64,000 nucleotides of DNA, taken from contig NZ_AP026867.1 of assembly GCF_026000115.1 (NCBI RefSeq), forward strand, positions 6,425,001 through 6,489,000, given 5' to 3'. The number at the start of each line of letters is the position of its first letter. Positions within the stretch are counted from its first letter, which is position 1. The position numbers and the translations under genes were made by a program. This DNA comes from Aureispira anguillae. Lineage in GTDB: Bacteria > Bacteroidota > Bacteroidia > Chitinophagales > Saprospiraceae. Of the stretch, positions 43,925 through 61,675 are shown piece by piece. Under the pieces are notes generated by a model, which worked only from the letters and a program-made list of their open reading frames with translations, was not told where the DNA came from and searched no databases.

Positions 43925-43968
43925 TTTGGCGAAAAAACTTTTCCTTGTAGGATTTATTATTTTTTAAC

Positions 43969-44369: not shown

Positions 44370-44379
44370 GTGTTCGTTG

Positions 44380-46014: not shown

Positions 46015-46086
46015 CCTATTAATGACTTCTTGCTTACGTTATTTATGATTTTGTTACAAAGAAAGACATAATAGAGGATAATTCAT

Positions 46087-46100
46087 TTGACGCAAATCAA
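46087..46100 (-). promoter_or_regulatory. FNR/CRP-type operator upstream of the quinone-reductase gene
   Basis: TTGAC-GCAA-ATCAA at 46087-46100, one base off the perfect TTGAT-N4-ATCAA dyad. Its centre is 33 nt from a CAAAGAAA (TTTCTTTG on the minus strand) -7-like box at 46057-46064. The same spacing is found at the regulator's own gene. The site overlaps the last codons of the regulator gene. Confidence 0.6.
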
Positions 46101-46672
46101 ATTCGCTTTTTAGGGCTTCTTATTCTGCTTAATGTCTCTAGTGTAATTCCTAAATAAGAAGCAATGTGCATTAGGGGAACTCTGTTTGTTATATCAGGTC
46201 GAATTTTTAATAACTGTCGGTATCTTTCTTCGGCTTTATTGAATAATATGGAGGATATTCTTTCTCGTAGCCCTAACATGGTTTTAGTCACAACTTTACT
46301 AATGAGGCGTTCAAAGTCATGGTATTGATTAGAGAGCTTATTAATGGTATCCCTCGAAATTTCAATAACGATTGATTCCTCAACAAATTCAACATAATGA
46401 GGGCTTGGTTCTTCGCTAAAAAAGCTAACAATAGAACACATAAACTCATTTTCAAAAGCAAACCAATCTGAAATGTCTTTACCCTTTTTTAGATAATATG
46501 CCCTTGAACAGCCTTGTATAATTAGATAAGCCCTATCAGAAAATTGCCCTTCACGAACAACAATCTCGCCCTTTTTGATGGTGCGAACGGTAACGTTGGC
46601 AATGAATTCTTGTTGGCATTCAATAGAGAGTGGAGCGTAAATTTCGCCAATTTTATGTAGTGTTTTTTTCAT
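46097..46672 (-). CDS. Crp/Fnr-family transcriptional regulator
   Basis: A 191-residue regulator with an N-terminal cyclic-nucleotide-binding-fold domain (VRTIKKGEIVVREGQFSDRAYLIIQG, then DWFAFENEFMCSIVSFF) and a C-terminal helix-turn-helix (VPLMHIASYLGITLETLSRIR). It lacks the N-terminal cysteine cluster of oxygen-sensing FNR and the full cAMP contact set, so the signal is unknown. I start at 46672 (MKKTLHKIGE). The 14 extra codons of a longer frame coincide with a promoter sequence that also occurs before the next gene. It is probably autoregulated through the box at 46722-46735. Confidence 0.88.
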   Translation of the reverse strand: MKKTLHKIGEIYAPLSIECQQEFIANVTVRTIKKGEIVVREGQFSDRAYLIIQGCSRAYYLKKGKDISDWFAFENEFMCSIVSFFSEEPSPHYVEFVEESIVIEISRDTINKLSNQYHDFERLISKVVTKTMLGLRERISSILFNKAEERYRQLLKIRPDITNRVPLMHIASYLGITLETLSRIRSPKKRI

Positions 46673-46721
46673 CCTATTTATGGTTTCATTACAAAGAACG
46701 GCATAATAAGGCATAGTTCAT

Positions 46722-46735
46722 TTGATATAGATCAA
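46722..46735 (-). promoter_or_regulatory. FNR/CRP-type operator upstream of the regulator gene
   Basis: A perfect dyad TTGAT-ATAG-ATCAA at 46722-46735. Its centre is 33 nt from the -7-like box at 46692-46699 (GTTCTTTG on the minus strand), which puts it near -41 of the expected start of transcription, the class II activator position. Confidence 0.65.
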
Positions 46736-47310
46736 ATTCATTTTCTAGGTGAGACTTATTCTTGTTACTTAATCATATAGGATTGTAATACTAATAGGGA
46801 CATGACTCTAGTCGTGAACCATAAAATTAACTTGGATGCTTTTGTTAACATTAATACTCCGCTGATTAGTTAGTGCGCGTTGCTTATGATCGCTTCACTC
46901 ATTGTTCCCTGTGGTCATGAGCGCTGCGCTTAGTTATTCCCTACAGTCATGAGATAGTTAACAAAAAATATAAAAAAGCAGTGCCTTCGCTTTTACCTAC
47001 GGTGCTAGGCATTCCAGTTGGTACACAGTACCAAGCTGCTCGTGCACTATGTTTATGTGGTATAGCTTTAGCTACAAGCATGCCCAGTTAGTACGCTAAC
47101 GGCAGGGTTCGGTTTACTTTGTTTATGTATTGGTTTGATAATCAGTGTTTTAATATTTTGATTAACAAAAGGCTATTTTGCTGATTATTAATTTGATACG
47201 ATTTTATAGCTGCGTAATGTAAAATAGGGCCATACTAAAAATAAAGCTGGGGCTGATCGAAGAAAACTAGCTGGAGCGATTTGGCGATCTGGAGGTATGA
47301 GCATAAAGAG

Positions 47311-47346
47311 AAAAGGTACAAGCCCCATTTTAGTAGGGCTTGTACC
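47311..47346 (-). terminator. Rho-independent terminator
   Basis: A perfect 11-bp stem GGTACAAGCCC (47315-47325) with GGGCTTGTACC (47336-47346); a T-rich run follows on the minus strand. It ends the 47367-47819 gene. Confidence 0.85.
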
Positions 47347-47366
47347 ATATTGTGAGCAGTATTTAT

Positions 47367-47819
47367 TTAAAATGGGATACAATATCCTCCTTTATTAATT
47401 CCACATCTAAGTGAAATTGGATATGGTTGATGTGGCAAACAAGCACCTGAGTATCTATAATAACAGTACCTGCTACTAGCATTTTGAGTCGTTTTTTCCA
47501 ATACTGGAAACGTTTGGTTCAGTGCATACTCCTCAGAAACTTTGAATAGCTGTACAGTTGCTTCTTTATCCTTGGTTCCATAAACAGCATAATAATAAAA
47601 GCCTTCATCTGGATTCAAATGAACATCCACTTTATGGATATGATCAAAAAGATCAGTAAAGTTGTTGGTTAAAACTTGTTGTAACTCTTTAGAATTAGAG
47701 CTTTCTATGTATTCTTTCTTAAAATTGGAAGGCAACACAATATCAGATGCTGCATCTTTAAATCCAAAAGAGGCAAAGATGGTCATACAGAAAATGCAAA
47801 ACAAAAATTTAAATTTCAT
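47367..47819 (-). CDS. Small exported cysteine-containing protein
   Basis: A 150-residue protein with a signal peptide of about 20-25 residues. The mature part has a short alpha/beta region (DIVLPSNFKKEYIESSNSKELQ) and a cysteine-bearing tail with four Cys in the last 33 residues (RYCYYRYSGACLPHQPY, then LRCGINKGGYCIPF). The Cys spacing suggests two disulfide bonds, as in small secreted peptides. No family is recognised. It has a good promoter upstream (47980-48011) and its own terminator, so it is very likely expressed alone. Confidence 0.7.
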   Translation of the reverse strand: MKFKFLFCIFCMTIFASFGFKDAASDIVLPSNFKKEYIESSNSKELQQVLTNNFTDLFDHIHKVDVHLNPDEGFYYYAVYGTKDKEATVQLFKVSEEYALNQTFPVLEKTTQNASSRYCYYRYSGACLPHQPYPISLRCGINKGGYCIPF

Positions 47820-48376
47820 AAAATTTGAGATTTTAAAAGTTAATACCTACTCTTTTGTGGGTTTTCGGCTTCCCCCAATTGCTCACAGCATTAGTGATGT
47901 TAAGGGTAAAAGATCTTAACACCCAAGGATTATCTGAAAACGCAAAATATATTATATGATTATGCTAGTTTGATGTCTTCAAATATAGAGGGAAGGCAAA
48001 TAGGACGCAAACCATATTTACGTTAAAAAATATAGATTCAAATAAAATAAGAGGCTTTAGGTTATTGATTATTAGTGTTTTATTGAAAAAGTTTGATGCT
48101 TGTTTTTTATCTAGTTTGATTAGACAAGGAAAAGTTTAGATAGGATGCATGAAAGGGGAAAAGAGGAGGAAAGATAGAATGGAATGGGAGGTAAGTAACT
48201 AAGCAGAATTGATTATGCGCTAAATTTACAATCCTTAGTTTTGCTTAGTTACTTAAGTAGTGAATGACTATGGAATCATAGGGATTTAATTGGGAAGTTT
48301 AGCCTCCCAAGGGTATTAAAAAATGAGTGTATATCTTTGAGTTCGATTGATTTTTTGTCTTAGAAAAAAACAAAAC
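47820..48376. other. Intergenic region with a promoter and a 14-bp perfect inverted repeat
   Basis: It contains the promoter of the Cys-rich protein gene and, at 48192-48205 and 48242-48255, the perfect inverted repeat TAAGTAACTAAGCA / TGCTTAGTTACTTA with a 36-nt loop. The repeat lies beyond the end of the propeller gene (minus strand, 48377) and may be its terminator, though without a T run, or a remnant of a small element. Confidence 0.5.
47980..48011 (-). promoter_or_regulatory. Bacteroidota-type promoter
   Basis: On the minus strand TTTG (48011-48008), a 20-nt spacer and TATATTTG (47987-47980), an exact fit to the TTTG/TAnnTTTG consensus. It drives the small Cys-rich exported protein gene, leaving a leader of about 150 nt. 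Confidence 0.65.
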
Positions 48377-49387
48377 TTATACTGTTGCTAGTGTATAAAC
48401 TTGCATTCCTAGTAAACCAGATAGGTATATGTTATCATTGATATGGGTTATATATTCAGGCTCAATATCAGTATCTACCTTGTCTATTAGGCTGCCATTC
48501 ATCGCATCAATAATAGATATTTGGAGGTCGGCTTCTAGTGTCTCAGCAACAACAAAAACTTGATTTTGGGTTATGGTATAAGAATTTATTGTCATTTTGT
48601 CCTTTCCAAATTGCCAACGTAACTTACCAGTAGTTAAATCATAGCAATTCATACCACCACCATCACCCAAAGTGATGTACATTTTATCCTCAAATACCTG
48701 AATATTGGAAAAAGTGGATTTTTGTAGCGCTTCATTTTCAAAGGAAAATATTAAATCGTTTGTTTGATTCCATTTCTTTATGCCAAACATTGAAGAATCC
48801 TCTAGCGCTTCTACGATCCATGTTTGATCTTCAAAATGGACAACATGAAGAATATTTTTGTCATATACTTTTTCGATACTGTCTTGTCGAACTAAAAATA
48901 CACCATCACTCCCTCCAAACAATAGATTTTCGTTTTCAAAAAATGGGAACTCTACTGTATTTTCTATTTTTTTGATTTCATTAATAGCACCCGATTGCGG
49001 ATTAAAAACACAATAATACCTTGTATTATGTTCTGTATGTAACGATACAAAACTTAGCGTTTGTTCTTCCTTATTGTTTATGCCTTTATTGTAAATTCTA
49101 TGAGGTGTTTTAATAACCTTTAATTCTTCCCCATTTTTATTGAGTAGCCCAAATACTTGATGACCAGTTGAACGATCAATAGCACCATAAACAATACATT
49201 CATCAAATACCCAAATAAGATGTGTTCCGACGGGGCTAGCGTATTCAATGGCATATTCCCACAATAATTTTCCTGATGCACTTTCAATAGCAATAATACT
49301 ACTATCCATCCTAAAATAAACGTTATCCTCATCATAAGCTTTATTAAAGGCAATATCCATCAAATCAATTGTATTCAAAAGTTTCAT
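48377..49387 (-). CDS. PQQ-like beta-propeller protein
   Basis: A 336-residue protein without a signal peptide. It consists of repeated four-strand blades with PQQ-type motifs: SASGKLLWEYAIEY, YDLTTGKLRWQFGKD and IDAMNGSLIDKVDTD, and blade starts such as VYFRMDSSIIAIES. No enzymatic residues for PQQ binding are evident, so it is probably a scaffold or binding propeller in the cytoplasm. It is not in an evident operon: the next minus-strand gene ends 158 nt upstream. Confidence 0.7.
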   Translation of the reverse strand: MKLLNTIDLMDIAFNKAYDEDNVYFRMDSSIIAIESASGKLLWEYAIEYASPVGTHLIWVFDECIVYGAIDRSTGHQVFGLLNKNGEELKVIKTPHRIYNKGINNKEEQTLSFVSLHTEHNTRYYCVFNPQSGAINEIKKIENTVEFPFFENENLLFGGSDGVFLVRQDSIEKVYDKNILHVVHFEDQTWIVEALEDSSMFGIKKWNQTNDLIFSFENEALQKSTFSNIQVFEDKMYITLGDGGGMNCYDLTTGKLRWQFGKDKMTINSYTITQNQVFVVAETLEADLQISIIDAMNGSLIDKVDTDIEPEYITHINDNIYLSGLLGMQVYTLATV

Positions 49388-49544
49388 TTGCTATAATTTT
49401 TAGTGTTAAGCTTGATTCTTTGCTGCTTAAAAAAAATGTTTAGAAGTCGATAAGACTATATTATTTAGATTCGTTACTTAGAAAGCATTTTTACAACTTC
49501 AATGATAAATAAGGTATTGGAAATACTCCAACACCTTATGTTTT

Positions 49545-51215
49545 TTAGTTTAATTCAGGAGTTTTTCTAGTGTAGCTGAGCAAGTCGTTTTCAGGAAGAT
49601 GTTCTATTATATTGATAGATTTATTCTCACAGTTAATGCTTGGAATATTACTAAAAATCCAGAATAAATTCGTCAAGTTTGGAAAGACTTCTTGTTTTAT
49701 ATTAATTTCATAACCATTGTTGTAGGTTGTTCGGTAAAAGTAATACATAAACTCTTGCAAGCGTTCGGCTTCATTGAATGCAGTTGCCGCCTCGTTGCTC
49801 AATTCAAAATTGATGAAGTCTAAATTATGGAACATACGATTATGATCCGTAGATTTTAATTTGTACAAAATCTCTGTAAACCAACCTTTGGGTTTTTGGT
49901 ATTGATTATACCTTGCCAATTCATACTGACGATCTAAATGAATATAAACGGCCCTTCCGTATCCATATTCAGCATCATCCCATTCTTTCCAGAGCAGGTT
50001 ATTGAGCTCGGCAACTTCCTTGGTTTCTTTTGCTTTATTAATATACTCATTGACGTTCATCGAACCTGCAATAACACTACCGATTAGGTTGACAAAAGTT
50101 TTGGTTTCCTCAGCCGTAAGCCCTTTAAGGTTCAATTTATATTTTTCAACATCAAAATATTTTTTGTTGGTAATTAATTTGACTTCTGCTTTACTAGGCG
50201 TAGCAGCGGCTATGTCAGCCAAAGTAGCATCAGGATTATTTAAGCGGGTTTTTATCCAAGGCAAGTAACGTTGTTTAACAATTTCTATCAACTCATAATC
50301 ATCTTCTAATTTTGTCAACGTTTTTTGAATTTTCTTTTCATTACCAGATTCTAAGTCCACAAATATTTTAGCCAATTCAGTAGATCTTGGAATATAAAAA
50401 GGAGCCTCTAAAAAAGAACTTATATGATGTGACTCATGTCTGAATATATTTGCCTTATCAAATGTTAGGTTGGCATAAGGAGAAGTAGGAATCATTCCGT
50501 AAGGATAATTATCCGTTTTAATGGTAAATTTGGTATTATAAATCATTAACCAAACGGTATCCGTTAAAAAGGGATAAGTAGATTGAGCCAAATCAAGAAC
50601 GATTGCTGGCGTCCAAGTATCCAAATCATCTTTGTGCTTTTTTTCAAACAAAAAGAATATAAATTCTTTTAGTACCAATGATTGATTGGCGTCCTCAAAG
50701 TTGGTGTGATCGAAATATAAGTGATAACATCGTTTAGCTGATCGGATCTTTTGAGCAATTTTAGCAAACCATTTGCCTCCAGATGATAAATCCAATTGTT
50801 CTTTCAGGCTATTTTTTACAATTTGATATTGTTCGCCAGAAATTGTTTTTAATTGCTCCCCTGTAGTAATATTTTTAACTTCATTACTGTATGCTTCTAA
50901 ATCAAAGCAACTAGCGATTATCCCACCAATTAAATCTACAACAGCTTTGGATTGAGTCTCGTCAAAATATTCAAAATTATAAAGATTGCCACCAGATAAT
51001 AACGTTCTAGTAAATTCGACCTCCTCCTTGCTAGGAGCTGCCGCTTCTATATCAGCCAAAGTTGCATTAGGGTTATTTAATCGTGCTTGGATCAATTTTA
51101 AATAACGCTTTTCTGCTTGTTCTTTTAAGGCAGCATCGTTTTCTAATTGTTCAAGTGCAGTTTGAATTTTTTTCTCATTTCGAGACTCTAAGTCACTAAA
51201 AATCTTTTTTATCAT
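49545..51215 (-). CDS. Large protein with two tandem copies of one domain, function unknown
   Basis: A 556-residue protein lacking a signal peptide, made of two copies of a ~275-residue unit. Residues 1-70 (IFSDLESRNEKKIQTALEQL, then RLNNPNATLADIEAAAPSKEEVE) recur at 281-350 (IFVDLESGNEKKIQKTLTKL, then RLNNPDATLADIAAATPSKAEVK). Later parts also correspond, each with a helical segment ending in a Trp/Phe-rich region (EFIFFLFEKKH / EFMYYFYRTTY). The helical repeats at the start of each unit may be a protein-interaction module. No known family is recognised. It lies next to the left repeat of the tRNA-Val cassette. Confidence 0.65.
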   Translation of the reverse strand: MIKKIFSDLESRNEKKIQTALEQLENDAALKEQAEKRYLKLIQARLNNPNATLADIEAAAPSKEEVEFTRTLLSGGNLYNFEYFDETQSKAVVDLIGGIIASCFDLEAYSNEVKNITTGEQLKTISGEQYQIVKNSLKEQLDLSSGGKWFAKIAQKIRSAKRCYHLYFDHTNFEDANQSLVLKEFIFFLFEKKHKDDLDTWTPAIVLDLAQSTYPFLTDTVWLMIYNTKFTIKTDNYPYGMIPTSPYANLTFDKANIFRHESHHISSFLEAPFYIPRSTELAKIFVDLESGNEKKIQKTLTKLEDDYELIEIVKQRYLPWIKTRLNNPDATLADIAAATPSKAEVKLITNKKYFDVEKYKLNLKGLTAEETKTFVNLIGSVIAGSMNVNEYINKAKETKEVAELNNLLWKEWDDAEYGYGRAVYIHLDRQYELARYNQYQKPKGWFTEILYKLKSTDHNRMFHNLDFINFELSNEAATAFNEAERLQEFMYYFYRTTYNNGYEINIKQEVFPNLTNLFWIFSNIPSINCENKSINIIEHLPENDLLSYTRKTPELN

Positions 51216-51524
51216 ACCTGTTTCTTGTTATTTGATTATGAATAGGAGGGAAGTTGAAATAAAGAAAGCAATTTTTGACCAGAATAGCAATCCCTATTTT
51301 AGCTGCTTTTAATAGGTTCAACTAGATCTTTTGTGATTTAATAGGTTGGTTACTATTGTTTTGTAACGGAAAATATACAGGTGTTTAAAGCGGTGTATAT
51401 CGAGACACGACAGTAAAAGGAGAAAAGAGGGAAACTATCACACACTTTTACAATCGATACACTTCTTTTTTTATTTTCTGTACGCTTGTAAGTGTTGTGT
51501 TTGTCAGTTAATTACAAGGGCTCG

Positions 51525-51713
51525 TCACAGATTCACACATTTATTTGATTTTTTTGGAAAAGATTTTTAATTGTTTTTGCTTAAAAAAAATTCACGGAGA
51601 TCGTGAAGTAAAATCAATAATTAAGATTCGATAGGGACAAAAAAATAACGGATGTAGTCCGTTTATTATCAAGACTTTGCATCCGTTTTTTTGTGGTCGG
51701 AACGATTGGATTC
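51525..51713. repeat. Left ~190-bp direct repeat with truncated tRNA-Val 3' end (attL-like)
   Basis: Nearly identical (four substitutions and one indel by eye) to 54437-54626. It includes two terminator hairpins, TTCACG-GAGAT-CGTGAA and AACGGA-TGTAG-TCCGTT (the latter at 51647-51663). Its right end, 51694-51713, is the 3'-terminal 20 nt of tRNA-Val (CCA, discriminator, acceptor 3' strand and half of the T arm, read on the minus strand). Identity stops inside the T loop. Confidence 0.9.
51694..51713 (-). pseudogene. tRNA-Val 3' fragment
   Basis: 20 nt identical to the end of the intact tRNA-Val at 54607-54626, including the encoded CCA; the other 5' three-quarters are missing and replaced by unrelated sequence. 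This is the usual scar where an element has integrated in a tRNA 3' end. Confidence 0.85.
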
Positions 51714-52148
51714 TACTCTTAATCCTTTTTGTAGCTGAATCCCAGTTTAATACATATATTTTTAGGCAACCTCTGTCTATTTTGGCTTTTGTAGGAGAGT
51801 TTACTTGTAAATGAACTCATTATTTTATATAGATTTTATGGTAAGAGTGATATAATATTTTTAAGATTCAAAAGATTCATCATTTAGTATTACATAAATA
51901 ACTATATTGTAAATCAAAAGAACAAGGTTCAAAATATATATGGCAAAAGCCTTATTCTTTAAACAGAGGCACTATTAATCAAGACGATGATCTATTTAAT
52001 GTTTTTCATGATAGTCAGATCCTTGAAAGATATTAAATAAGCATAAATAATATTCTTTAACTTTAATAGATACTAATAGTGTAAATTAAAATCATAGATA
52101 TTTCATCACTTGAAGTTTATAATGAAATAGTAAAAAATACATATTAAT

Positions 52149-52949
52149 ATGCAAAACTCACATATTTTAGTAGATGAGATTATAACAAAAAAGAAAGAGT
52201 TACTTGACCTCCCTGATAAAATAGCTCTATATAAAATGAGAGTTCAACTTTTAGAAAAAGATAAACTCTCATTTGGGACTAGGTTATCTCCAGAAGAACA
52301 GAAGCAAAAAGCAGAGCTTTTAGAACTAATTAAAACACTTGATTTAATGGAAACTCGTCTTTCAAAGCAAAAAATACAAGCAACAAATCTTATTAATCAG
52401 CATAATGGATCTCTTAACAACGGTGAAATTGAAAAATTAAAAGAGGTCCATGAGGGGCTAACTAAAATAGGTCATGATTTAGAATTTGCACTAAAAAAAG
52501 GATTTTCTAAAATAAATGGTTTTTATAATAATGTGTTAAAAAATCCTGATCAAAATTCTATATTAGATTCTATATCCCGAAGATACACTGAATTAGAAAA
52601 ACTATACACATTCCATTTTAGATTATTGAATGATTCAATGGATGTTTCACAAAGAGAAAATGTAGTTAACAGGTTATTGGAGCTTTCAAAGGAGATGTCT
52701 AAGTTAGATAATGAAATATTGGCACTAAGAGATAGAGATCAGGTTTTTATTAAAAAACAATTTTCCAATGGGAGATATATAGTTTCAACAATGTTTGCTG
52801 CTGTGGTTTTAACTGTAGGTTTATTCTTAACATTAAGTCATAATTCTAATGAACCCAATATAGGAAGTGTACTAGTGGGATATGGATTAATAGGCTTGGG
52901 CATTAACTTAAGGATGGAAAATACTAATGATTCTAAAAATGATAATTAA
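52149..52949 (+). CDS. Coiled-coil protein with C-terminal transmembrane hairpin
   Basis: A 266-residue protein. Residues 8-115 and 145-200 are strongly charged amphipathic helices with heptad-like Leu spacing (KMRVQLLEKDKLSF, LLELIKTLDLMETRLSKQK, NVVNRLLELSKEMSKLDNEIL). Two hydrophobic helices follow at about 210-230 and 238-255, ending GLGINLRMEN. It should be inner-membrane with a large cytoplasmic coiled coil. No family is recognised. Codon use is more AT-rich than in neighbouring genes. The stop is one base before the ATG of the pentapeptide-repeat gene, so translation is coupled. It lies in the tRNA-Val cassette. Confidence 0.75.
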   Translation: MQNSHILVDEIITKKKELLDLPDKIALYKMRVQLLEKDKLSFGTRLSPEEQKQKAELLELIKTLDLMETRLSKQKIQATNLINQHNGSLNNGEIEKLKEVHEGLTKIGHDLEFALKKGFSKINGFYNNVLKNPDQNSILDSISRRYTELEKLYTFHFRLLNDSMDVSQRENVVNRLLELSKEMSKLDNEILALRDRDQVFIKKQFSNGRYIVSTMFAAVVLTVGLFLTLSHNSNEPNIGSVLVGYGLIGLGINLRMENTNDSKNDN

Positions 52950-52950
52950 G

Positions 52951-53949
52951 ATGACAAATAATCAAATTTTAAAATGGGGAATAAGCTTGTTTGTTATCTC
53001 TTTATTAACAATTATAACATTTGTTTGTTCTTATAATAATATTGAAGGATTTTCTAAGATTTTACCTTTTGCTTTTTTAGGGATGTCTCTTAGAATAATT
53101 GGAGAGATAATTGGATTATCAAGAGATAGAAAGACTATAAGTAATAGTATGTCTTTTAGTGAGTTTATATTTTCAATTTGGATTATTATAGGTATAGCAA
53201 CTGTAATAATTTTTTCATCAATTAACGCCCCCTTTTCTTCTAAAGTATTAGGTCATCCTGAATTTAGTAATATAGATTGGAGCGGAAAAAAGCTAAATCA
53301 GACTAGTTTAAAATCTGCAAGGCTAGATAATGCATTATTAGTTAATGTACTATTGGACTCAAGTGATTTAAGCTATTCCTTTTTTTCTAATACTAATTTG
53401 AGTTTTTCTAATTTAAGACATTCTAACTTAAGTTATATTACTTGGGATTCTATAAATCTTATTTTTTCGAAAATGCAAGGTGCAAATTTGTATGGTGCAA
53501 ATTTAAACTTTTCGGAAATGTATGGTGCAAATTTAGACAATGCAAATTTAAAAAATGCAAATTTAAGCTTTTCAAGAATGCAAGGTACAAATTTGTATTA
53601 TGCAAATTTAAGCTTTTCGAAAATGCAAGGTACAAATTTGAATGGTGCAAATTTAAGCTTTTCGAGAATGCAAAGTGCAGATTTAGAAAATGCAGATTTG
53701 CATGATGCAGATTTACGAGGTGCAAATTTACGAGGTGCAAATTTAAAGGGAGCTCACTTGAGTAGAATAAAAGTTAATAATACAAATTTCATCAAACAAT
53801 TAGAACAATGGGACTGCAAAGGTATACAAGAAATAAAAGACAAATACTACGTAGATTTACAAATACACTATTTTGAATGGGATAAAGAAAAAAAACACCC
53901 ATACTACCTAATAAAAGAAAAACTAACCAAGTCACAAAACAAAGAATAA
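52951..53949 (+). CDS. Transmembrane pentapeptide-repeat protein
   Basis: A 332-residue protein. Hydrophobic segments lie at about 10-28, 37-56 and 70-92. From about 116 to 275 a Leu, Met, Phe or Trp falls at nearly every fifth position (120 to 270), giving roughly 31 pentapeptides, about eight coils of a right-handed quadrilateral beta helix. The central part consists of five 15-residue units of the type SFSRMQGTNLYYANL (45-bp DNA repeats, 53461-53700). The charged tail is about 55 residues. I start at 52951; frames from 52927 would overlap the upstream gene. The end of its second hydrophobic segment (LGMSLR) resembles the end of the neighbour's hairpin (LGINLR). Function unknown. Confidence 0.8.
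   Translation: MTNNQILKWGISLFVISLLTIITFVCSYNNIEGFSKILPFAFLGMSLRIIGEIIGLSRDRKTISNSMSFSEFIFSIWIIIGIATVIIFSSINAPFSSKVLGHPEFSNIDWSGKKLNQTSLKSARLDNALLVNVLLDSSDLSYSFFSNTNLSFSNLRHSNLSYITWDSINLIFSKMQGANLYGANLNFSEMYGANLDNANLKNANLSFSRMQGTNLYYANLSFSKMQGTNLNGANLSFSRMQSADLENADLHDADLRGANLRGANLKGAHLSRIKVNNTNFIKQLEQWDCKGIQEIKDKYYVDLQIHYFEWDKEKKHPYYLIKEKLTKSQNKE
53461..53700 (+). repeat. 45-bp coding minisatellite (five units)
   Basis: Five in-frame 45-bp units encode residues 171-250 of the pentapeptide protein: 53461-53505, 53506-53550, then a 15-bp insert (KNANL) and 53566-53610, 53611-53655 and 53656-53700. Adjacent units share long identical stretches at the DNA level, which points to recent expansion by slippage or unequal recombination. 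Confidence 0.85.
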
Positions 53950-54606
53950 AAACCAAAAACAAACCACAAAAACACCAACTACCGCAAAAAACAAAATTCC
54001 TAGAGAAAAAACCACTTTATTTTTCCAACACTCCAACAAGGAACAAAAAGCCCCCTCACGAATACAGGAGATAGCTCTATAAGTATCTAATAATGAATAA
54101 ATAATATAAAACTATAACTAAACACACTATCAAAAACACTGTTGGAGTCCATTTTTAAGTGTTGGAAAGAGCATTGTTTTCTCCTACAACAATTTTTTTA
54201 TTCTTTTGATTTTAACTCTAAGGCGAGTTTGAGTGCTTTGATTAACTTTATGGTTTAATTTTTAATTAAAAATGTACTGCGTGAGAACTAACAACAGGAA
54301 TGCAATAAAAATTCTATAGATGTAAAAGAAGGAGGGGGTGTGGGGGATTCGTCACACGGCACACAAGCGACATAGATAAAGTAAGCCACTTTTGTGTCTT
54401 TTTGTTGCTTGATAATCAATTGAATAAGTGAAAGTATCACAGATTCACACATTTGTTTGATTTTTTTGGAAAAGATTTTTAATTGTTTTTGCTTTAAAAA
54501 AAATTCACGGAGATCGTGAAGCAAAATCAATAATTAAGATTAGATAGGGACAAAAAAATAACGGATGTAGTCCGTTTATTATCAAGACTTTGCACCCGTT
54601 TTTTTG
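53950..54606. other. Gene-free region ending in the right tRNA-Val repeat
   Basis: 53941-54060 is strikingly poor in G on the plus strand (about 8 G against more than 30 C in 120 nt). Around 54015-54165, CCAACACT and ACTCCAACA reappear as AGTGTTGG and TGTTGGAGT, a split inverted repeat that may end the cassette transcript. 54437-54606 belongs to the right direct repeat and holds the terminators of the tRNA gene. No gene is convincing. Confidence 0.5.
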
Positions 54607-54626
54607 TGGTCGGAACGATTGGATTC
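54437..54626. repeat. Right ~190-bp direct repeat overlapping the tRNA-Val gene (attR-like)
   Basis: Counterpart of 51525-51713. Here it continues into a complete tRNA gene. Within it lie two minus-strand terminators for the tRNA: AACGGA (54560-54565) with TCCGTT (54571-54576) and seven T, then TTCACG (54504-54509) with CGTGAA (54515-54520) and eight T. Confidence 0.9.
54504..54576 (-). terminator. Double terminator of the tRNA-Val transcript
   Basis: Two hairpins, each followed by a T run on the minus strand: 54560-54576 (T run 54552-54558) and 54504-54520 (T run 54496-54503). Both are also present in the left repeat. Confidence 0.75.
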
Positions 54627-54684
54627 GAACCAACGACCCCTACCCTGTCAAGGTAATGCTCTAAACCAACTGAGCTACGTTCCG
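54607..54684 (-). tRNA. tRNA-Val(GAC)
   Basis: Read on the minus strand from 54684. The acceptor stem is CGGAACG with CGTTCCG (54678-54684 with 54611-54617). The D arm is GCTC...GAGC, the anticodon stem TTACC/GGTAG (one wobble) with loop TTGACAG, hence anticodon GAC (valine). The T arm is GTTGG-TTCGAAT-CCAAT, the discriminator is A and CCA is encoded (54607-54609). All invariant positions appear intact. Its last 20 nt are also found at 51694-51713, marking it as the likely insertion target of the neighbouring cassette. Confidence 0.95.
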
Positions 54685-54928
54685 TATTTCTGTGGAGCAC
54701 AATATAACAACTATTTTTTCTTCAACAAAATTCTATGAAACTGCTTTTAATAAAAAAGCAAATAATAAGGCAATGCGTTATAAAAAAATGAAGCATACAA
54801 CGTAAAAAGGGCATATTTAGATTCAAGTAGAATCATTCAAAGTCATAAAAAAAATTTTAAGTAAAAGGTTACCCTTTCCTTACAAAATCCATACTACTGA
54901 CATTTCAAAAACTTAAAAATAGGCGACT

Positions 54929-56206
54929 ATGATGAACAAAATTACGTTTACCTTTCTTTTTCTAGTTTACAGTTGTGCTTTTTTATTTGGACAAGAAACC
55001 AAACGAGCATTTTTTATAGGAAATAGTTATACCTATTACAACACCTTACCAGCTCTGATTAATAGTTTAGCGAACGCCAATGGAGATACCTTAATTCATG
55101 CGTCTAGCACTCCTGGTGGTGCCCAACTCATTCAGCATATTAACAATACAAATACGCTAAATGGAATTCGTCAAGGGAATTGGGATTATGTTGTGATACA
55201 AGAGCAGAGTCAAAAACCTTCTTTTTCTCCGAGTCAGGTTGCGGTAGAAGTGTTGCCTTATGCAGCACAATTAGACGACAGCATCAATTTTTACAACCCC
55301 TGTGCAGAAACAGTTTTTTTTATGACTTGGGGCAGAAAGAATGGAGATCAGAGCAATTGTCAATTTTATCCTCCAATATGTACCTATGATGGCATGCAAA
55401 ATCGTTTAAGAAGTAGCTATTTGTTGATGGCAGATCAGAATGAGGGAATCTGTTCGCCAGTAGGAGCAGCTTGGAAAGTAGCACGAGATAGTTTCCCCGG
55501 AATAGAGCTTTATGCCCCAGATGGTAGCCATCCTTCTTATGCTGGATCTTATTTAGCGGCTTGTACTTTTTATGCGACCATTTTTCAAAAAAGTCCTGTG
55601 GGATTGGCTTTTTATGGAAGCTTAACAGCAGGAGATGCACAAATTTTGCAAAATATTGCTGCTTCGGTAGTCTTGGATAGTTTACCCAGTTGGAATATAG
55701 GTGATTATGATGTTGTGGCAAGTTTTGATACCACGATTCATTTAGATAGCGTACAATTTTATAACAATAGCACTTATTCTAATAATTATTATTGGAACTT
55801 TGGCGATTCATCAGCTGCTTCTATGGCTGCCAATCCATCCCATATATATGATAGTGCAGGAACTTATCTCGTCACTTTGATTGCTTCGGACAGTTGTGGA
55901 AATAGAGATACGACGATGCAAAGCGTTGTTATTAATATTATTACAAATGTGAAAAAAATAAAAGAAAATAAAAAAAATATTTTTTTATACCCAAATCCTG
56001 CAAGTGACTGTGTTACTGTAGCTTCGCTAAAAAAGATAGAATCGATTCGAATTGTAAATTCATTTGGAGGGGAAGTTTTTTATCAAAAAAATATGAAAAG
56101 CAAAAAAAATGTTTTATATTTGAAAACATACGCTAGAGGGGTTTATTATGTGTATATTAAACTCCAAAATAGCAAATGGATTTTGAAAAAACTTGTATTA
56201 CAATAG
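54929..56206 (+). CDS. T9SS-secreted SGNH-hydrolase-like protein with PKD domain
   Basis: A 425-residue exported protein. Residues 1-21 are a signal peptide. The first domain (about 24-245) resembles SGNH hydrolases: FIGNSYTYYNTLPALI (block I, Ser33), VIQEQSQKP and the terminal DGSHPSYAGSYL with the Asp-x-x-His pair near 198-201. A PKD domain follows (about 262-335; YYWNFGDSSAASMAANPSHIYDSAGTYLVTL). The type A T9SS sorting domain is at about 350-425 (FLYPNPASDCVTV). It may deacetylate or de-esterify surface polysaccharides; the substrate is unknown. Monocistronic. Confidence 0.85.
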   Translation: MMNKITFTFLFLVYSCAFLFGQETKRAFFIGNSYTYYNTLPALINSLANANGDTLIHASSTPGGAQLIQHINNTNTLNGIRQGNWDYVVIQEQSQKPSFSPSQVAVEVLPYAAQLDDSINFYNPCAETVFFMTWGRKNGDQSNCQFYPPICTYDGMQNRLRSSYLLMADQNEGICSPVGAAWKVARDSFPGIELYAPDGSHPSYAGSYLAACTFYATIFQKSPVGLAFYGSLTAGDAQILQNIAASVVLDSLPSWNIGDYDVVASFDTTIHLDSVQFYNNSTYSNNYYWNFGDSSAASMAANPSHIYDSAGTYLVTLIASDSCGNRDTTMQSVVINIITNVKKIKENKKNIFLYPNPASDCVTVASLKKIESIRIVNSFGGEVFYQKNMKSKKNVLYLKTYARGVYYVYIKLQNSKWILKKLVLQ

Positions 56207-56282
56207 GGGTTCATTTAGGGTAGAATGTGGGCAATGGGGAGCCTACCGCTTCTACCCATTTTTTTTGCCCCAAATAGAAAAA

Positions 56283-56323
56283 AAACTCGTTTCAAGTATC
56301 AATTGAAACGAGTTTTTTTTTGA
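56283..56323. terminator. Bidirectional terminator between convergent genes
   Basis: A perfect 13-bp stem AAACTCGTTTCAA (56283-56295) with TTGAAACGAGTTT (56303-56315), an A run before and a long T run after. It serves the SGNH gene (plus) and the EnvC-like gene (minus). Confidence 0.92.
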
Positions 56324-56333
56324 AAGTAGCCTT

Positions 56334-57566
56334 TTATCTTTTTATCCAATTGGCTGGATTCTCTTTGGATTTATTATGCCAAACCTCAAAATGCAAAACA
56401 TGTCCTCCTGCATTGGTATCACGCCCAATTGTTCCAATTTGTCCTCCTGTTTTTAAGCGTTGCCCCTTTTTTACATAAACCTTAGCAATATTAGAGTAGG
56501 TCGTGTAATAATTGCCATGTTTAACCATAACAGCATTATTAAAACCAGGAATTGTAAAAATACTAACAACTTCTCCTTTATAGACATTTCGGACAACAGA
56601 GTTGTATTGCCCCTTGATGTCAATTCCATTGTTATTAACAATCACATCTTGAAATAAAGGGTGATTTCGCCTCCCATAATACCCTACAATAACGCCATGA
56701 TAAATAGGAGACATTAGTTGTCCTCGTTGTTGGGCAAATTGCCTACTGGCTTCATCTTCTAAAAGGATAGAGGGAGCGGGCTGTTGCTGTCGCCTAGGTT
56801 TCTTGGTTTGTTGTTGTTGGTATTTTCGAGCGGCTTCTTTGGCGGAGGCAATTTGCTCTAATATTGCTCTTTCTATTTTTTTGTTAAGTTGTATTTTATA
56901 ACGTTTCTTTCGTTTTAAATCAGAGCGAAGACGTGCTTCTTTTTTCTTGAGTTGCTCAATTAGTTGCGCTTTGTTCTTCTTTTCATCTGCCAATAATTGT
57001 TTTTGTTCAATTTCTTGTTGGAGCAAAAGGTCTTGTTCTGATTTTTGTTGTTCAAGCTGGTTGATGCGCTGTGTTAAATCTTTTTGGGTTTGTTGAATGA
57101 ATTTAGCTTGCATATTTCTGTATCCCTCAAGATGCTGAATGTAAATCCAACGTTGATAGGCTTGATTAAAACTATTGGAAGACAACAAAAACGAGATGAC
57201 ATTACGACTAATTTTGTAACGATATAGCTGGCGAATTAATTTTTTATAATTAGATCGAAGGACAACTAAGTCGCTCTCCAGCACTTCTACAACCGTCATT
57301 TTACGATCAATCATGGTATCTATTTGGTCAACATGATGCATGGCAACTTCTATTGATTCTTCTCTTGAATCAATTTGCTGTTTGAGAAGGTTCAATTTTT
57401 GAAAGGTTGCTTTTTTGTTATTCGTTGTTTTGCGAATAAGCAGATTGGTTTTATTGATCTCGTGATTGATCGAACGCCTTTTTTTCTCTAAATCAGAACG
57501 AGATTGAGCTAGGCATGTTGTACAACCAATAAGTATAAGTAAAAATGTAAAGGTGTAGTGTTTCAT
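56334..57566 (-). CDS. EnvC-like murein hydrolase activator (degenerate M23 domain)
   Basis: A 410-residue exported protein. It has a signal peptide (first ~20 residues, lipobox-like IGCTTCLAQ) and a long coiled coil (about 25-270, many Lys, Gln and Glu). The C-terminal LytM/M23 domain follows (VGYYGRRNHPLFQDV, then KHGNYYTTYSNIAKVYVKKGQRLKTGGQIGTIG). The HxH pair is kept (GHVLHFE), but the first zinc ligand is replaced: NNGIDI instead of HxGID. The layout is that of EnvC, which activates amidases at the division site rather than cutting itself. The start at 57566 overlaps the stop of the Nramp-like gene by one base (TAATG), so translation is coupled. Confidence 0.85.
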   Translation of the reverse strand: MKHYTFTFLLILIGCTTCLAQSRSDLEKKRRSINHEINKTNLLIRKTTNNKKATFQKLNLLKQQIDSREESIEVAMHHVDQIDTMIDRKMTVVEVLESDLVVLRSNYKKLIRQLYRYKISRNVISFLLSSNSFNQAYQRWIYIQHLEGYRNMQAKFIQQTQKDLTQRINQLEQQKSEQDLLLQQEIEQKQLLADEKKNKAQLIEQLKKKEARLRSDLKRKKRYKIQLNKKIERAILEQIASAKEAARKYQQQQTKKPRRQQQPAPSILLEDEASRQFAQQRGQLMSPIYHGVIVGYYGRRNHPLFQDVIVNNNGIDIKGQYNSVVRNVYKGEVVSIFTIPGFNNAVMVKHGNYYTTYSNIAKVYVKKGQRLKTGGQIGTIGRDTNAGGHVLHFEVWHNKSKENPANWIKR

Positions 57567-58825
57567 TATAATAGACTCCAAATATAGATGCCGCAAAATA
57601 CAAATAAATATACAATTCCTAAACCACTTAAGGCTTTAATAATCATTGAGGGTTGTTGTTCTTTAGGCAAGTAGCGAGTTACTAGAATATAATTGACAAT
57701 AGCGAAAAAAGGGGTGGTTAGGAAAGATAGAATGGTTGCAACCATTAAGAAGGATGCCATATTGGTCAAAAATAAGTTGAGTATAACCAATGATCCAATG
57801 ACTAAGGTGCCCAGCCAACCAAAATAATAAACTCTTGATGAATCTGCTTGTGTGTTTGTTGAATGAGTTGCAGTGTTTTTTTTCATCAATAGAACATGGG
57901 CTTTTGCCATAGAGCGAGGTAGAGCATCTAGGCAAGTTACTGTCGTACTAAACATGGTTATAAAGGCTGCTAAACCAATAAAAAGCCCCATGCTATTACC
58001 AAGTGTAGTGGTATACAATTCAATCAACTGTTTAGCAAAAACGGCTCCTTTGGGGGAAAACGCTGTTCCTGAGTTGTACATAACTAAGGCACCTAAAGCA
58101 ACAAAAAATAGGGCTAAGATGGTTGTTCCTATGTAGCCAACGTTAAAATCAAAGAGCGATTTTTTGAGATTAAAGTCATCCTGCGTTTGTTTTTGTTTTT
58201 CTAGTGCCCAAAGCGAATGCCATACCGATAGATCTAGTGGGGCAGGCATCCAACCCATGAAGGCAATTACGAAGGTTAAACCTATTCCTTCCATCGGAAA
58301 TTCTTGTGCCCAACGAATTGGGCTAGTGGTTTGCTTGAACGCAATAATTACAGTGATAAACGTAATAAGTGTTAATGTAATAATAATAAATTTCATTAAG
58401 TTATCTAGCAATTTGTAACGCCCAATGGTCAATATTCCAGCACATACAAGAAGTAAAATTGCTGCCCAAAACATTAGGCTGATTCCATTGCCAAACAAAT
58501 GAACGGCTAGGCTAGCTGTTACAATGGTTACCGCTGCTTGTATTGTAAACATAGTGCAGAGGGTGATGATGCTAAATAAGCCCAATACCCAATTGCCTAA
58601 GCGTTGATAGCCTCTTAACAAACTTTCTCCTGTTGCCGCTGCATAGCGTGGCCCGAATTCAAAAAATGGATATTTAAAAATATTGGCCATAAAGACCAAC
58701 CATATTAATCCAAATCCATAAATGGCGCCTGCTTTTGTGGAATAGACCAAATGGGAAACGCCTACTGCTGCACCAGCAAACAATAAGCCTGGACCTAATG
58801 ATTGAAGTATATTTTTTTTTGTCAT
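57566..58825 (-). CDS. Nramp-family transporter, atypical
   Basis: A 419-residue inner-membrane protein with about eleven hydrophobic segments and the Nramp-family pattern (GPGLLFAGAAVGVSHLVYSTKAGAIYGFG, then FFEFGPRYAAATGESLL). The canonical metal ligands are not there: the first helix has GVSHLVYSTKAG instead of DPGN, and helix 6 has FMGWMPAPLDLS instead of a Met-Pro-His motif. It therefore belongs to the Nramp-like branch with altered substrate, perhaps another metal or an organic ion. I start at 58825 (MTKKNILQ); an ATG at 58849 would overlap the upstream gene. It lies between the oxidoreductase and EnvC-like genes in one operon. Confidence 0.85.
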   Translation of the reverse strand: MTKKNILQSLGPGLLFAGAAVGVSHLVYSTKAGAIYGFGLIWLVFMANIFKYPFFEFGPRYAAATGESLLRGYQRLGNWVLGLFSIITLCTMFTIQAAVTIVTASLAVHLFGNGISLMFWAAILLLVCAGILTIGRYKLLDNLMKFIIITLTLITFITVIIAFKQTTSPIRWAQEFPMEGIGLTFVIAFMGWMPAPLDLSVWHSLWALEKQKQTQDDFNLKKSLFDFNVGYIGTTILALFFVALGALVMYNSGTAFSPKGAVFAKQLIELYTTTLGNSMGLFIGLAAFITMFSTTVTCLDALPRSMAKAHVLLMKKNTATHSTNTQADSSRVYYFGWLGTLVIGSLVILNLFLTNMASFLMVATILSFLTTPFFAIVNYILVTRYLPKEQQPSMIIKALSGLGIVYLFVFCGIYIWSLL

Positions 58826-58835
58826 AGTTTTAGTG

Positions 58836-60032
58836 TCAAATAGTTTCACAACTTATCTGTAAATCGGCTGCAATCAATCGTTCAAATAGAATACTGCCCA
58901 AAGCAATGGTTGGCGTTAAAAAGCCAGTATAGTTGGGAAGTTGTTTATGGTCTAGGGACAAAGCTAATGCGCATTCGCAAATAAAACAAGTTGTGGCCTT
59001 ATTTCCAGCATCTCCTTGGTAGTTCATGGTCATAATGGCTCGATTTCCTTTGTTGTCATTACCAATGATTCGCAGCTTAAAAAATCCATTTTCTATTGCT
59101 TCCTGATTCGGTCCTTCTCCTGATTGAGGGCCTAGTTTTTGAGCGGCTTTTCGGAACCAGTTAAATTGCCCTAAAACTCCAAATGAAAGCATTCCAACTG
59201 AGGCTAGGAGAGCGGGAATCCGCTTACCAATAGCATGGTATTCTTGATAGACAAATTCTTTGGGATGTGGCAATTCATACTCCGCAGCTAGACCAATACT
59301 CCTATAGACTACTTTGGTGTTAATATCTGCCATAAAAAATGGATAAACCCAGCCTTGTATATCTTCTGCATAATGGTTTTTCCAGACTCGTTTTGTTGGG
59401 GGGATAAAATTGTGGTATTTTAAATCTTGAATTAGCAATTGAGGATTTGCTAAACGTTTGGTTTCTTTTTGTTGAAGCATATTTAGGGCAGAAAGCAGGG
59501 TGCCACCATTAAGCCCTACTTGGGCTAGGGTATAATAACCATCTGCTTTTACCAACTCTGATTGCCAGCTTTCTCGCATGTATTTTTGTAAAAACCATAC
59601 CCCTAAATCGGCAGGAATACTATCGAATCCGCAAAATGGGATAATTTTAGCGCCTGTTTTTTGGGCGAGAGAGCCATATTGATCCAACATATCACGTACC
59701 CAAGGAGATTCACCTGTAATGTCTACATAATGAACGCCATACTTTGCGCAGTTGGCTACAATGTTGTTTCCATATAGGGCATAAGGACCTACTGTTGTTA
59801 AAAAAACTTGTGTCTGTTGGACTAAAATATCAATCTCTTCATTATTTAAGGCATCGGCAACAAGAGCATCAGCAAATAAATTTAATTCTTGTTTTAGTGC
59901 TAATAATTTTTCTTCATTTCTTCCTGCAATAGCCCAACGAACAGAGATGGGGGCATGTTCTTGAAAATAGGCTACTGCTTGTCTACCTGTAAAACCTGTT
60001 GCGCCATAAAGTATAATGTCATATCTTACCAT
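58836..60032 (-). CDS. Saccharopine dehydrogenase-like NAD(P)-binding oxidoreductase
   Basis: A 398-residue Rossmann-fold protein of the SCCPDH / trans-acting enoyl reductase family. The start DIILYGATGFTGRQAVAYF is the nucleotide-binding loop; GVHYVDITGESPWVRDMLD and IIPFCGFDSIPADLGVWFL are further family hallmarks. Eukaryotic SCCPDH and mycobacterial enoyl reductases share them; the substrate is unknown, probably a lipid or polyketide. It is followed within 11 nt by the Nramp-like gene, so the two are co-transcribed. Confidence 0.88.
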   Translation of the reverse strand: MVRYDIILYGATGFTGRQAVAYFQEHAPISVRWAIAGRNEEKLLALKQELNLFADALVADALNNEEIDILVQQTQVFLTTVGPYALYGNNIVANCAKYGVHYVDITGESPWVRDMLDQYGSLAQKTGAKIIPFCGFDSIPADLGVWFLQKYMRESWQSELVKADGYYTLAQVGLNGGTLLSALNMLQQKETKRLANPQLLIQDLKYHNFIPPTKRVWKNHYAEDIQGWVYPFFMADINTKVVYRSIGLAAEYELPHPKEFVYQEYHAIGKRIPALLASVGMLSFGVLGQFNWFRKAAQKLGPQSGEGPNQEAIENGFFKLRIIGNDNKGNRAIMTMNYQGDAGNKATTCFICECALALSLDHKQLPNYTGFLTPTIALGSILFERLIAADLQISCETI

Positions 60033-60163
60033 AAATTTGTATTTCTAGTGAGCTCGTTGTCTAATATAGCAAAACTCTTTAAACTGTAAAGCTTAAAGAG
60101 TTAGATTATTAGCTGTGATAATAGAAACTTTTGGGCAGGACATAGAGGGGGAATCAATGCTTA

Positions 60164-60613
60164 TTACATCATATCGTCCAATATGTCTTCTTGAAAAATA
60201 GAGCGTTCATTATTGTTAGAGGAAGGTAAAGTCGGTGCTTTTTGATATAGCAGCCAGGTTAGGCGATAATACCAAGTTGCGATTAATGCAGGAATGATAA
60301 TCAATAAGGGTAAAAATAGAAAATCTACTCCTCCTTCTATTAGCATTTCTAAGCTAGGAAAAAAAACAAATAGAGACAGAAGGTAAGCTATCGCAGCCAT
60401 AAAATAGCGTTTGTGTTGAACATTTGCATATTGTACGCTATGAAATGCACCACTCATTAATTGTGCTAAACCAAGAAGGAATTGAAATAATAGGGCTAAA
60501 ATAAAAAATCCATTTTCTACAAAATAGAGCAGATAGCAGATTATCATGGGCAAATAGCCCAGACTTTGTATCACTAAATCTATTTGGTAAGTCTTTTTGG
60601 GAGCTTGTTTCAT
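60164..60613 (-). CDS. Four-helix membrane protein of unknown function
   Basis: A 149-residue protein with four hydrophobic helices, about 12-30, 33-52, 70-92 and 96-117, and a polar C-terminal tail (NNNERSIFQEDILDDMM). No family motif is seen. Its start lies 36 nt after the SRPBCC gene stop, and the oxidoreductase gene begins 131 nt further on, so it may belong to the same transcript. Confidence 0.65.
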   Translation of the reverse strand: MKQAPKKTYQIDLVIQSLGYLPMIICYLLYFVENGFFILALLFQFLLGLAQLMSGAFHSVQYANVQHKRYFMAAIAYLLSLFVFFPSLEMLIEGGVDFLFLPLLIIIPALIATWYYRLTWLLYQKAPTLPSSNNNERSIFQEDILDDMM

Positions 60614-60649
60614 AACTGTTCTTGTTTCGTGAGGAGAAATAGGAGGGAT

Positions 60650-61126: not shown

Positions 61127-61324
61127 GTTTTATCGTTTAAAATAATAGAATATGTATTCTATAGTGTTAAACTTGTTTTAATTTATAAAAGTTTCAGAAA
61201 ATATTGAAAGTTTAAAAAGTTATACAAAATTGTTCACAACAGGGCATAAAAAAGCACTATTGATATTTTATGAAAACCAATAGTGGAGCTAGAAGTAAAG
61301 TATTTAGAGTTTGTCCATCAAATT

Positions 61325-61639: not shown

Positions 61640-61675
61640 TTAAAGGGGCGAAGAATAAAACTTACACTAATAAAA

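Follow-up and report, generated by a model that had tools for sequence, protein, structure and literature searches.

The tRNA-Val(GAC) locus of the marine bacterium Aureispira anguillae raises the question of how a 2.9-kb stretch with two genes came to lie between direct repeats of about 190 bp, a length that is unusual for the att sites of site-specific integration. The tRNA gene (54607–54684, minus strand) is the sole tRNA detected within the window, that is, the whole 64-kb stretch of DNA that was analyzed; besides it, an Rfam scan gave three matches, all under the gathering score. We propose that the window very probably preserves what is left of an array of tandem tyrosine-recombinase elements of two kinds, here called A and P, that was inserted at this tRNA gene and collapsed by deletion. 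Sequence comparison suggests that the long repeats correspond to the left ends of a pair of stacked A elements.

The repeats (copy 1, 54437–54626, and copy 2, 51525–51713, both on the minus strand) are identical in 185 of 190 alignment columns, with four substitutions and one indel between them, which bears out the initial annotation of an intact tRNA-Val gene and two direct repeats differing at about five positions, one of them including the tRNA 3′ end. Copy 1 comprises an att core (54596–54626), a terminator-like hairpin read by eye, a stretch resembling native chromosomal DNA, and the arm motif GTGTGAATCTGTGA at 54437–54450, and is of the A left-end type. Copy 2 holds the distal core, present as a 20-nt tRNA 3′ fragment, together with a left end that belongs to a second element of the A type; both copies terminate in one and the same arm motif, a feature missed initially. 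At the crossover end, both copies share an identical run of 31 bases; the six bases preceding it are TGGTTC in the tRNA and AGAGTA in the other copy. Allowing up to three mismatches, the 19-base core occurs at only two places in the 64 kb (chance expectation 0.01). The genome holds two exact copies and two unrelated places with two mismatches, and no third att core was found in it. A BLAST search of 54437–54684 against the 7.79-Mb genome identified six places, namely the query, the 97% copy, and four matches covering only the tRNA part (query positions 178–245 or less); the proposed check for further copies of the repeat therefore yields only these two. A long shared att region has a precedent in phage HP1, which we do not count as evidence.

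Comparison of the locus with related genomes, also proposed earlier, identified both an empty site and other cargo. In G008, which is another species of the genus, the tRNA is followed by a helicase-like gene (C31:128598–128777). In G003 this tRNA holds a 26.6-kb element of kind A, bounded by 26-bp direct att repeats and with an integrase of the tyrosine recombinase type 375 bp beyond the tRNA end; on either side of this element, G003 and the empty G008 site are 99.2–99.6% identical. The initial annotation had named, as evidence against an integrated cassette, close relatives all carrying the same two genes and both repeats in the same place, and this was not observed because the site is empty in G008 and holds other cargo in G003. 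The crossover point is shared as well: the displaced copies read TAGAATCC in both G003 and the window, and the tRNA reads TCGAATCC. The cassette thus retains attL and attR, with 31 identical core bases at each end, the tRNA 3′ end is restored by the integrated element, and the point at which repeat identity to the tRNA stops, suspected from the outset to be a crossover zone, is the boundary of the site-specific crossover in G003.

This boundary bears on two other explanations of the long repeats. The first, raised in the initial annotation, is that the region downstream of the tRNA was duplicated in tandem and foreign DNA then entered, and it would account for the resemblance of 54504–54600 within copy 1 to the native downstream DNA of G008. 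However, the repeat begins at the very base used by the G003 element, and both interior sides match the ends of other elements, so that two sister left ends explain the repeats better and a duplication is extremely improbable. The second is homologous capture, in which homologous recombination would have brought in a circular molecule bearing some 190 bp of the DNA downstream of the tRNA. The integrase of the cassette is dead, and 190 bp at 97% identity, as found between the repeats, could serve homologous recombination; against this, the T-loop boundary coincides with the site-specific crossover of a relative, and we consider capture very unlikely as the origin of the cassette. Homologous recombination could have acted at another stage: homologous events may have taken place between the repeat copies, and gene conversion may be the source of their 97% identity.

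The stretch 54504–54600 deserves separate mention. It is 77% identical to the DNA downstream of tRNA-Val in both G008 and G003 and does not resemble the left end of the G003 element. Its presence at both A ends runs against a stacked array.

The A and P kinds were delineated from elements elsewhere; elements of both kinds occupy the terminal bases of a tRNA or tmRNA gene. A elements measure approximately 26–28 kb and carry a conserved gene block; P elements measure approximately 14–19 kb and have a few genes in common with A elements, and one of them, P1, encodes a DnaG-type primase and an HTH regulator. At ssrA in the window's genome the two kinds alternate in the order P-A-P-A-P, and arrays made of these two kinds are found in this genome at ssrA and tRNA-Ala, as well as at tRNA-Ala of G003. 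The arm motif GTGTGNNTCTGTGA lies, with 0–2 differences, 175–221 bp from the core in all seven A-type left ends examined, including both window repeat copies. At least two matches with two or fewer mismatches were found in 4 of 100 window shuffles, and both window motifs are exact. An iteron-like cluster distinguishes P elements (five of five examined) from A elements (none of G003val, A1, and A2). The cargo of P elements lies between the iterons and the right att and is read toward the iterons in P2, P3, both tRNA-Ala P elements, and the window cassette; in each of the two tRNA-Ala P elements an 83-aa ORF has the opposite orientation, and the cargo slot of P1 is empty. No description of these elements was found in the part of the literature on Aureispira prophages, Aureispira genomes, and Saprospiraceae considered here.

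Read from the tRNA, the cassette consists of an A-type left end, 17 integrase codons, P-type iterons, a two-gene cargo slot, and a P-type right end. The remainder of the A-type left arm and the integrase leader (54252–54436, minus strand) is weakly alignable and is placed mainly by its position between the arm motif and the integrase start. The integrase remnant (54198–54251, minus strand) begins with ATA and runs for 17 codons to a stop. It matches the A-type integrase start at G000 4114098 in 14 of 17 residues, with a peptide score of 50, where 60 shuffles per query, for two queries, reached at most 45 and 41, and BLAST detected the same integrase start at 86% over 64 bp. The adjoining P-type module (53988–54180, minus strand), 72% and 71% identical to P2 and P3 at ssrA, contains part of an iteron-like cluster, with four copies of TCCAACA/TGTTGGA at 54024–54160; this is the single such cluster in the window, and none of 100 Markov sequences contains one. 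Beyond the cargo, the right end (51744–51816, minus strand) matches two P right ends, at 83% the one at tRNA-Ala of G003 and at 77% that of the window's genome, and no A right end matched it at an E-value of 0.01.

The claim of two cargo genes without an intact integrase therefore stands, although the integrase remnant and the iterons had both been overlooked; no recombinase other than the 17-codon stub is present among the cassette ORFs, and the integration and excision genes are lost. The cassette carries no regulation or replication genes of its own, only the two cargo genes. Its AT-richness was confirmed at 28.2% G + C for the interior. The cargo stretch has 28.3%, a value as low being found in 5 of 311 segments of 1801 bp across the window (mean, 35.6%). 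Cargo 1 (52149–52949, plus strand) encodes a 266-aa protein without known relatives and with one strong hydrophobic segment near its C end; among 40 genomes it was found only in its own, and genome_contigs gave no relative. Cargo 2 (52927–53949, plus strand) encodes a 340-aa membrane protein with a pentapeptide-repeat domain. A PADLOC search with both genes gave no match at 0.1. Both products probably work at the membrane, in the service of either the cell or the parent element, the role itself being a guess.

The junction between the two kinds of sequence is sharp, as A homology stops at 54200 and P homology starts at 54180, a switch within 19 bp. A single hybrid element with an A left end and a P right end, formed elsewhere, integrated at tRNA-Val, and then shrunk, would look the same. 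Mixed elements do exist: a 49-kb stretch at tRNA-Ala (4064376–4113702) combines a P-type integrase, a P-like primase, and iterons with A-type block genes. However, the fusion point lies inside both the integrase gene and the iteron cluster, as a deletion predicts, and an A element directly adjoining a P element is an order that ssrA shows four times and that recurs once in G003. We therefore consider a hybrid origin possible, although somewhat unlikely.

Further support for a collapsed array comes from the far side of copy 2, which runs on into an A-type arm region (51424–51556, minus strand) that aligns with the A-type left end at G000 4113.9 kb at 84% identity in 135 columns (E-value 1e-35); the portion below 51525 lies outside the repeat. 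The repeats are read as two A left ends because the second copy continues into this other A-type left arm. A second A-type left end, of which only a stub remains, thus stands directly past the distal core, in tandem with a related element. Past the arm motif, the two left ends diverge abruptly. A candidate second integrase stub past copy 2, whose offset of 392 agrees with G003, was rejected as its scores of 32 and 30 are at the level of the shuffle means (34 and 33). The second A element is therefore represented by the approximately 100 bp outside the repeat, there being neither a significant integrase remnant nor a third core. Between it and collinear DNA further left lies a stretch of chromosomal-looking genes (38620–51290) that matches nothing in the 100 kb of G008 used for comparison and includes one gene with relatives elsewhere in G008 and G003. 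The array remains sit at one edge of a chromosomal inversion.

These features suggest the following course of events. In the cases read here, each A or P element supplies a replacement 3′ end and an apparent terminator, which leaves the RNA gene whole and a core available for the next element, as the arrays show. Arrays such as those at ssrA and tRNA-Ala would have grown by repeated insertion. At tRNA-Val, an A left end adjoins the tRNA, and a P right end and then the second A left end come after it. Nearly everything would have been lost through a deletion that began at integrase codon 17 of the first A element and ended within the P iteron cluster, leaving 2.9 kb with the A left end, the integrase stub, four iterons, two cargo genes, and the P right end, and the second A element would also have lost its body, at the inversion edge. 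The cassette is thus an integrase-less integrated element, as first suggested, in that its integration was site-specific and it has no working integrase; it is not a purpose-built minimal element, and looks like a chimeric deletion relic of two kinds of element.

As the att cores are identical, the cassette could still be excised, or could serve as a landing site, with a related integrase from another element. A minimal satellite that A or P elements within the cell still mobilize in trans would be consistent with the 31 shared core bases, the retained arm motif, and the four iterons. The genome also encodes relatives of the G003 integrase (three intact at 48–57%, one broken at 64%, and one distant P-type at 30%), and an A-type ATPase search gave nine matches in it. 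However, the three intact close integrases are located at ssrA (two) and tRNA-Ser and none at tRNA-Val, the iteron cluster is down to 4 of 9–11 copies, and cargo 1 is restricted to this genome among the 40. Ongoing mobilization as a satellite is accordingly quite unlikely.

The relation between A and P as helper and satellite is a conjecture. A elements might be temperate, tail-less virus-like elements of Aureispira and its near kin, with P elements as their satellites and the cassette as a third-level mini-satellite riding both, which we rate as unlikely. That interpretation draws on the common RNA-gene sites, the alternate stacking, and the few common genes, and it supposes replication from the iteron cluster; the mini-satellite would have kept, besides two cargo genes, cis sites only (two att cores, the arm, and some of the iterons). 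Among the proteins of the G003 A element that were compared with PHROGs, named phage functions were only of the integration, lysis, and DNA metabolism types, and a PHROGs search with the A-type ATPase gave a match for 0 of 8 members. Scans of viral_contigs with this ATPase and a 225-aa A protein gave no confirmed relative, and phage records gave none for two A proteins. Comparison of two A proteins with solved structures returned weak matches only (E-values 0.14–0.81), and further searches gave none up to an E-value of 1.

Among known systems, the cassette works like a cis-mobilizable element (CIME), being att-flanked and recombinase-less, although its parent elements were scanned without finding conjugation genes. 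As described in part of the literature on Streptococcus (PMC5704250, PMC7563491), CIMEs keep their att sites, have lost recombination genes, lie in tandem with a related element, and carry cargo, with sizes of 1.2–13 kb in S. salivarius. The cassette shares each of these properties, and its 2.9 kb falls within that range. CIMEs can also be mobilized once a functional element has entered their att site, as the cassette might be. However, CIMEs are defined there as derived from ICEs or IMEs, whereas no relaxase, VirB4, or coupling families were found in Pfam (thresholds 0.01–0.05) for all 35 ORFs of at least 60 aa of the G003 A element and for 10 of 11 P1 ORFs, a 67-aa ORF being left out. This test of ancestry used A and P elements elsewhere; the elements once at tRNA-Val are gone, and types not yet described are possible. 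The relic also adjoins the target gene, whereas in the parts of these accounts dealing with S. salivarius the most decayed elements lie furthest from it (PMC5704250, PMC7563491).

Islander-type islands, which use tyrosine integrases and insert in tRNA and tmRNA genes, likewise restore the target gene and leave a displaced 3′ fragment marking the far end, according to the portion of their description considered here (PMC4383910), but the cassette differs from them in lacking its own integrase. Its direct repeat extends to 190 bp, unlike theirs, because a sister left end follows. Judged as a tRNA-integrated island, the locus has an empty site in a relative (G008) and no integrase of its own. Pairs of helper phage and satellite, such as PICI-like elements and AH14a/AH14b, also place a large and a small element with few common genes in one cell, as excerpted from PMC4936722. 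Phage satellites rely on a helper for packaging, a dependence that is conjectural for P elements, and they have regulation and replication genes of their own, which the cassette lacks; the phage functions named in the G003 A element are limited as above.

An att repeat that appears too long can thus be read as a pair of sister left ends from an array that has collapsed. This reading exposes two kinds of element, A and P, whose alternating stacks occupy tRNA and tmRNA genes, and their loci offer a place to study tandem accretion, decay, and cargo trapping in Bacteroidota.

The two direct repeats claimed in the initial annotation at tRNA-Val(GAC) (54607-54684, minus strand) are real, with copy 1 (54437-54626) and copy 2 (51525-51713) identical at 185 of 190 columns and a 2.9-kb cassette between them. 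The window corresponds to positions 6425001-6489000 of contig 1 in genome G000. BLAST of this genome found no third copy, the four other matches covering the tRNA part only. The att core comprises 31 bases identical in both copies, counted from the crossover side. The proposed comparison with relatives, looking for an empty or alternative site, returned both. In G008 the site is empty, tRNA-Val being followed about 250 bp on by the gene for a 1088-aa protein labeled helicase-like from reading its sequence. G003 and G008 share 99.2-99.6% identity on both sides of the site, but G003 holds 26.6 kb between the two halves (L027:5227 to L028:11871; G003 C1 695226-721870), bounded by a 26-bp direct repeat consisting of the tRNA end. 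A 301-aa tyrosine recombinase in this insert adjoins the tRNA (Pfam Phage_integrase, 1.7e-16). At the positions where the tRNA has TCGAATCC, the displaced copies of G003 and of the window both show TAGAATCC, and the crossover point is therefore identical in two insertions from different species. A DUF4886 gene upstream of the tRNA is common to G000, G008, G003, G006, G001 and G004; of 10 loci tested, each 2.0-3.2 kb long, only that of G008 has the helicase-like gene beside the tRNA, and in G003 this gene is found on the far side of the insert.

The G003 insert belongs to the larger (A) of two kinds of tyrosine-recombinase element that integrate at tRNA and tmRNA gene ends, and the left end of the cassette resembles this kind. 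On the minus strand, 375 bp from the core, the cassette encodes IKLIKALKLALELKSKE followed by a stop; the corresponding distance is 392 bp in G003 and 355-356 bp at ssrA. Fourteen of these 17 residues match the start of a truncated A-type integrase at G000 4114098, and three other A-type integrase starts share 9 to 11. The peptide scored 50 against shuffle maxima of 45 and 41 (two queries, 60 shuffles each), and the integrase-start DNA is 86% identical over 64 bp. Additionally, all seven A-type left ends examined, including both repeat copies, carry the arm motif GTGTGNNTCTGTGA with 0 to 2 differences at 175 to 221 bp from the core; two or more matches at 2 mismatches occurred in 4 of 100 shuffled windows. 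On the basis of these similarities, the left end of the cassette is assigned to the A type.

The right part of the cassette is classed by homology with the smaller (P) kind. A homology stops at 54200 and P homology begins at 54180. The stretch 53988-54180 matches the ssrA P elements P2 (72%), P3 (71%) and P1 (76% over 63 bp) and the tRNA-Ala P elements of G000 (71%) and G003 (69%), with weak matches also in G005 and G006 (E 1e-4 to 7e-3; genus search, 9 genomes). It forms part of a TCCAACA/TGTTGGA cluster with four copies in the cassette; five P elements hold 9, 11, 11, 11 and 9 copies, a further cluster of 11 lies in a 49-kb mixed stretch, and no such cluster occurs in the G003 A element or the ssrA A elements A1 and A2. 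The last 100 bp of the cassette match P right ends at tRNA-Ala (83% in G003, 77% in G000), with two further weak matches in G004 and at G000 2972806. Both cassette genes are oriented against the element direction, like the cargo slots of P2, P3 and both tRNA-Ala P elements; P1 has no gene in this slot, and both tRNA-Ala P elements contain an 83-aa ORF with the opposite orientation to the slot genes.

Past 51525 the sequence resembles an A-type left end at G000 4113.9 kb. Identity is 84% over 135 columns, of which about 32 fall within the repeat; the portion outside the repeat, 94 columns, is 89% identical. The repeat copies would therefore represent the left ends of two A-type elements. As no integrase start could be demonstrated after copy 2 and a search of G000 found no further core, the second element amounts to a stub. 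The stretch 54504-54600, present in both copies, is 77% identical to native downstream DNA of G008 and G003. The A elements may have acquired a host terminator, the G008 stretch may itself derive from an old element end, or gene conversion may have spread the sequence. That identity breaks off so sharply at the arm motif points to recombination among left ends.

Collinearity between G000 and G008 runs to G000 6463619 and resumes at 6493312. In between, the first 16 kb or so found no counterpart in the 100 kb of G008 used for comparison, and G000 6479504-6493109 (13.6 kb) is inverted relative to G008 128777-107976 (20.8 kb). As the inverted segment, window 54504-64000 and on to G000 6493109, starts at 6479504, one inversion edge lies at the tRNA-Val array. 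To the left, a repeat at 46840-47101 is 84% identical to G000 4313719-4313988, near the tmRNA locus, with 51 bp also matching at about 4118030; a 556-aa gene (49545-51215) has two neighboring relatives elsewhere in G008 and in G003 (59% and 52%).

The first cargo gene (52149-52949, plus strand; 266 aa) had no above-threshold match in Pfam, and searches of 39 other genomes and of genome_contigs found it no relative. The second (52927-53949, plus strand; 340 aa) carries a pentapeptide-repeat domain (Pfam, 3.4e-37), and a simple hydropathy scan shows three hydrophobic stretches near the N end. Neither matched PADLOC, and a defence role for them is only a guess. Defence-like genes of A and P elements occupy a different slot, adjoining the integrase. 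The G003 A element encodes a type IIG restriction enzyme there, and P1 a 1303-aa protein that contains a SMEK_N domain and shows weak STAND/NB-ARC matches as well as a partial PADLOC match. A 1005-aa gene just before the right att of the 49-kb mixed stretch encodes a protein matching the pentapeptide cargo.

The G003 A element encodes the integrase, a VapE-like helicase, two amidases, a P-loop ATPase and many small, partly membrane-type proteins; with no tail or terminase family among its 35 ORFs (Pfam), it may be a tail-less prophage. P1 has another integrase, a DnaG-type primase, an HTH regulator and a few genes in common with A. The G003 integrase is matched at five places in G000. The two at ssrA are identical to each other (57% to the query), that at tRNA-Ser is 48% identical, a broken integrase reaches 64%, and the fifth is a distant P-type integrase at 30%. 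A related integrase adjoins tRNA-Ser(TGA) in both G000 and G003 (L082, L085; 48% and 47% identical to the integrase at tRNA-Val of G003).

The ssrA array has five core copies beyond the tmRNA's own (4331891, 4360276, 4376661, 4403889 and 4418555), delimiting elements of 14.2, 28.4, 16.4, 27.2 and 14.7 kb, ordered P-A-P-A-P by gene comparison. It spans about 101 kb (L089, L078-L081, L110; G000 C1 4317302-4418568), and its two A integrases are identical proteins. P elements measure 14-16 kb at ssrA and 18-19 kb at tRNA-Ala, and A elements 27-28 kb. At tRNA-Ala, both G000 and G003 have a P element in the first position, followed by an A-type integrase in G003 and the 49-kb mixed stretch in G000 (L107-L109, C1 4064376-4113702), which combines a P-type integrase, primase and iterons with A-type block genes. 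Each of seven further 18-19-kb stretches contains relatives of 12 to 20 of the 35 G003 A ORFs; in L129, the one traced by coordinates, the A block order is kept except for one gene. Among 298 genomes of the order, the A ATPase profile had nine matches in G000 and a single one in G381; G003 carries this ATPase yet is absent from the matches, and so is not in the sample. In genome_contigs the ATPase occurs in Aureispira sp. CCB-QB1 and in a single Saprospiraceae MAG, and on this basis the genus is taken to be Aureispira. Two A proteins searched against phage records gave no match, two searched against viral contigs gave no confirmed relative, and the ATPase did not match PHROGs.

Among known kinds, the cassette was compared with cis-mobilizable elements (CIMEs; att-flanked and recombinase-less), as treated in PMC7563491, and it appears to work like one. 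It is not filed as a CIME proper because no conjugation family was found in the ORFs scanned of the G003 A element (35 of 35) or P1 (10 of 11).
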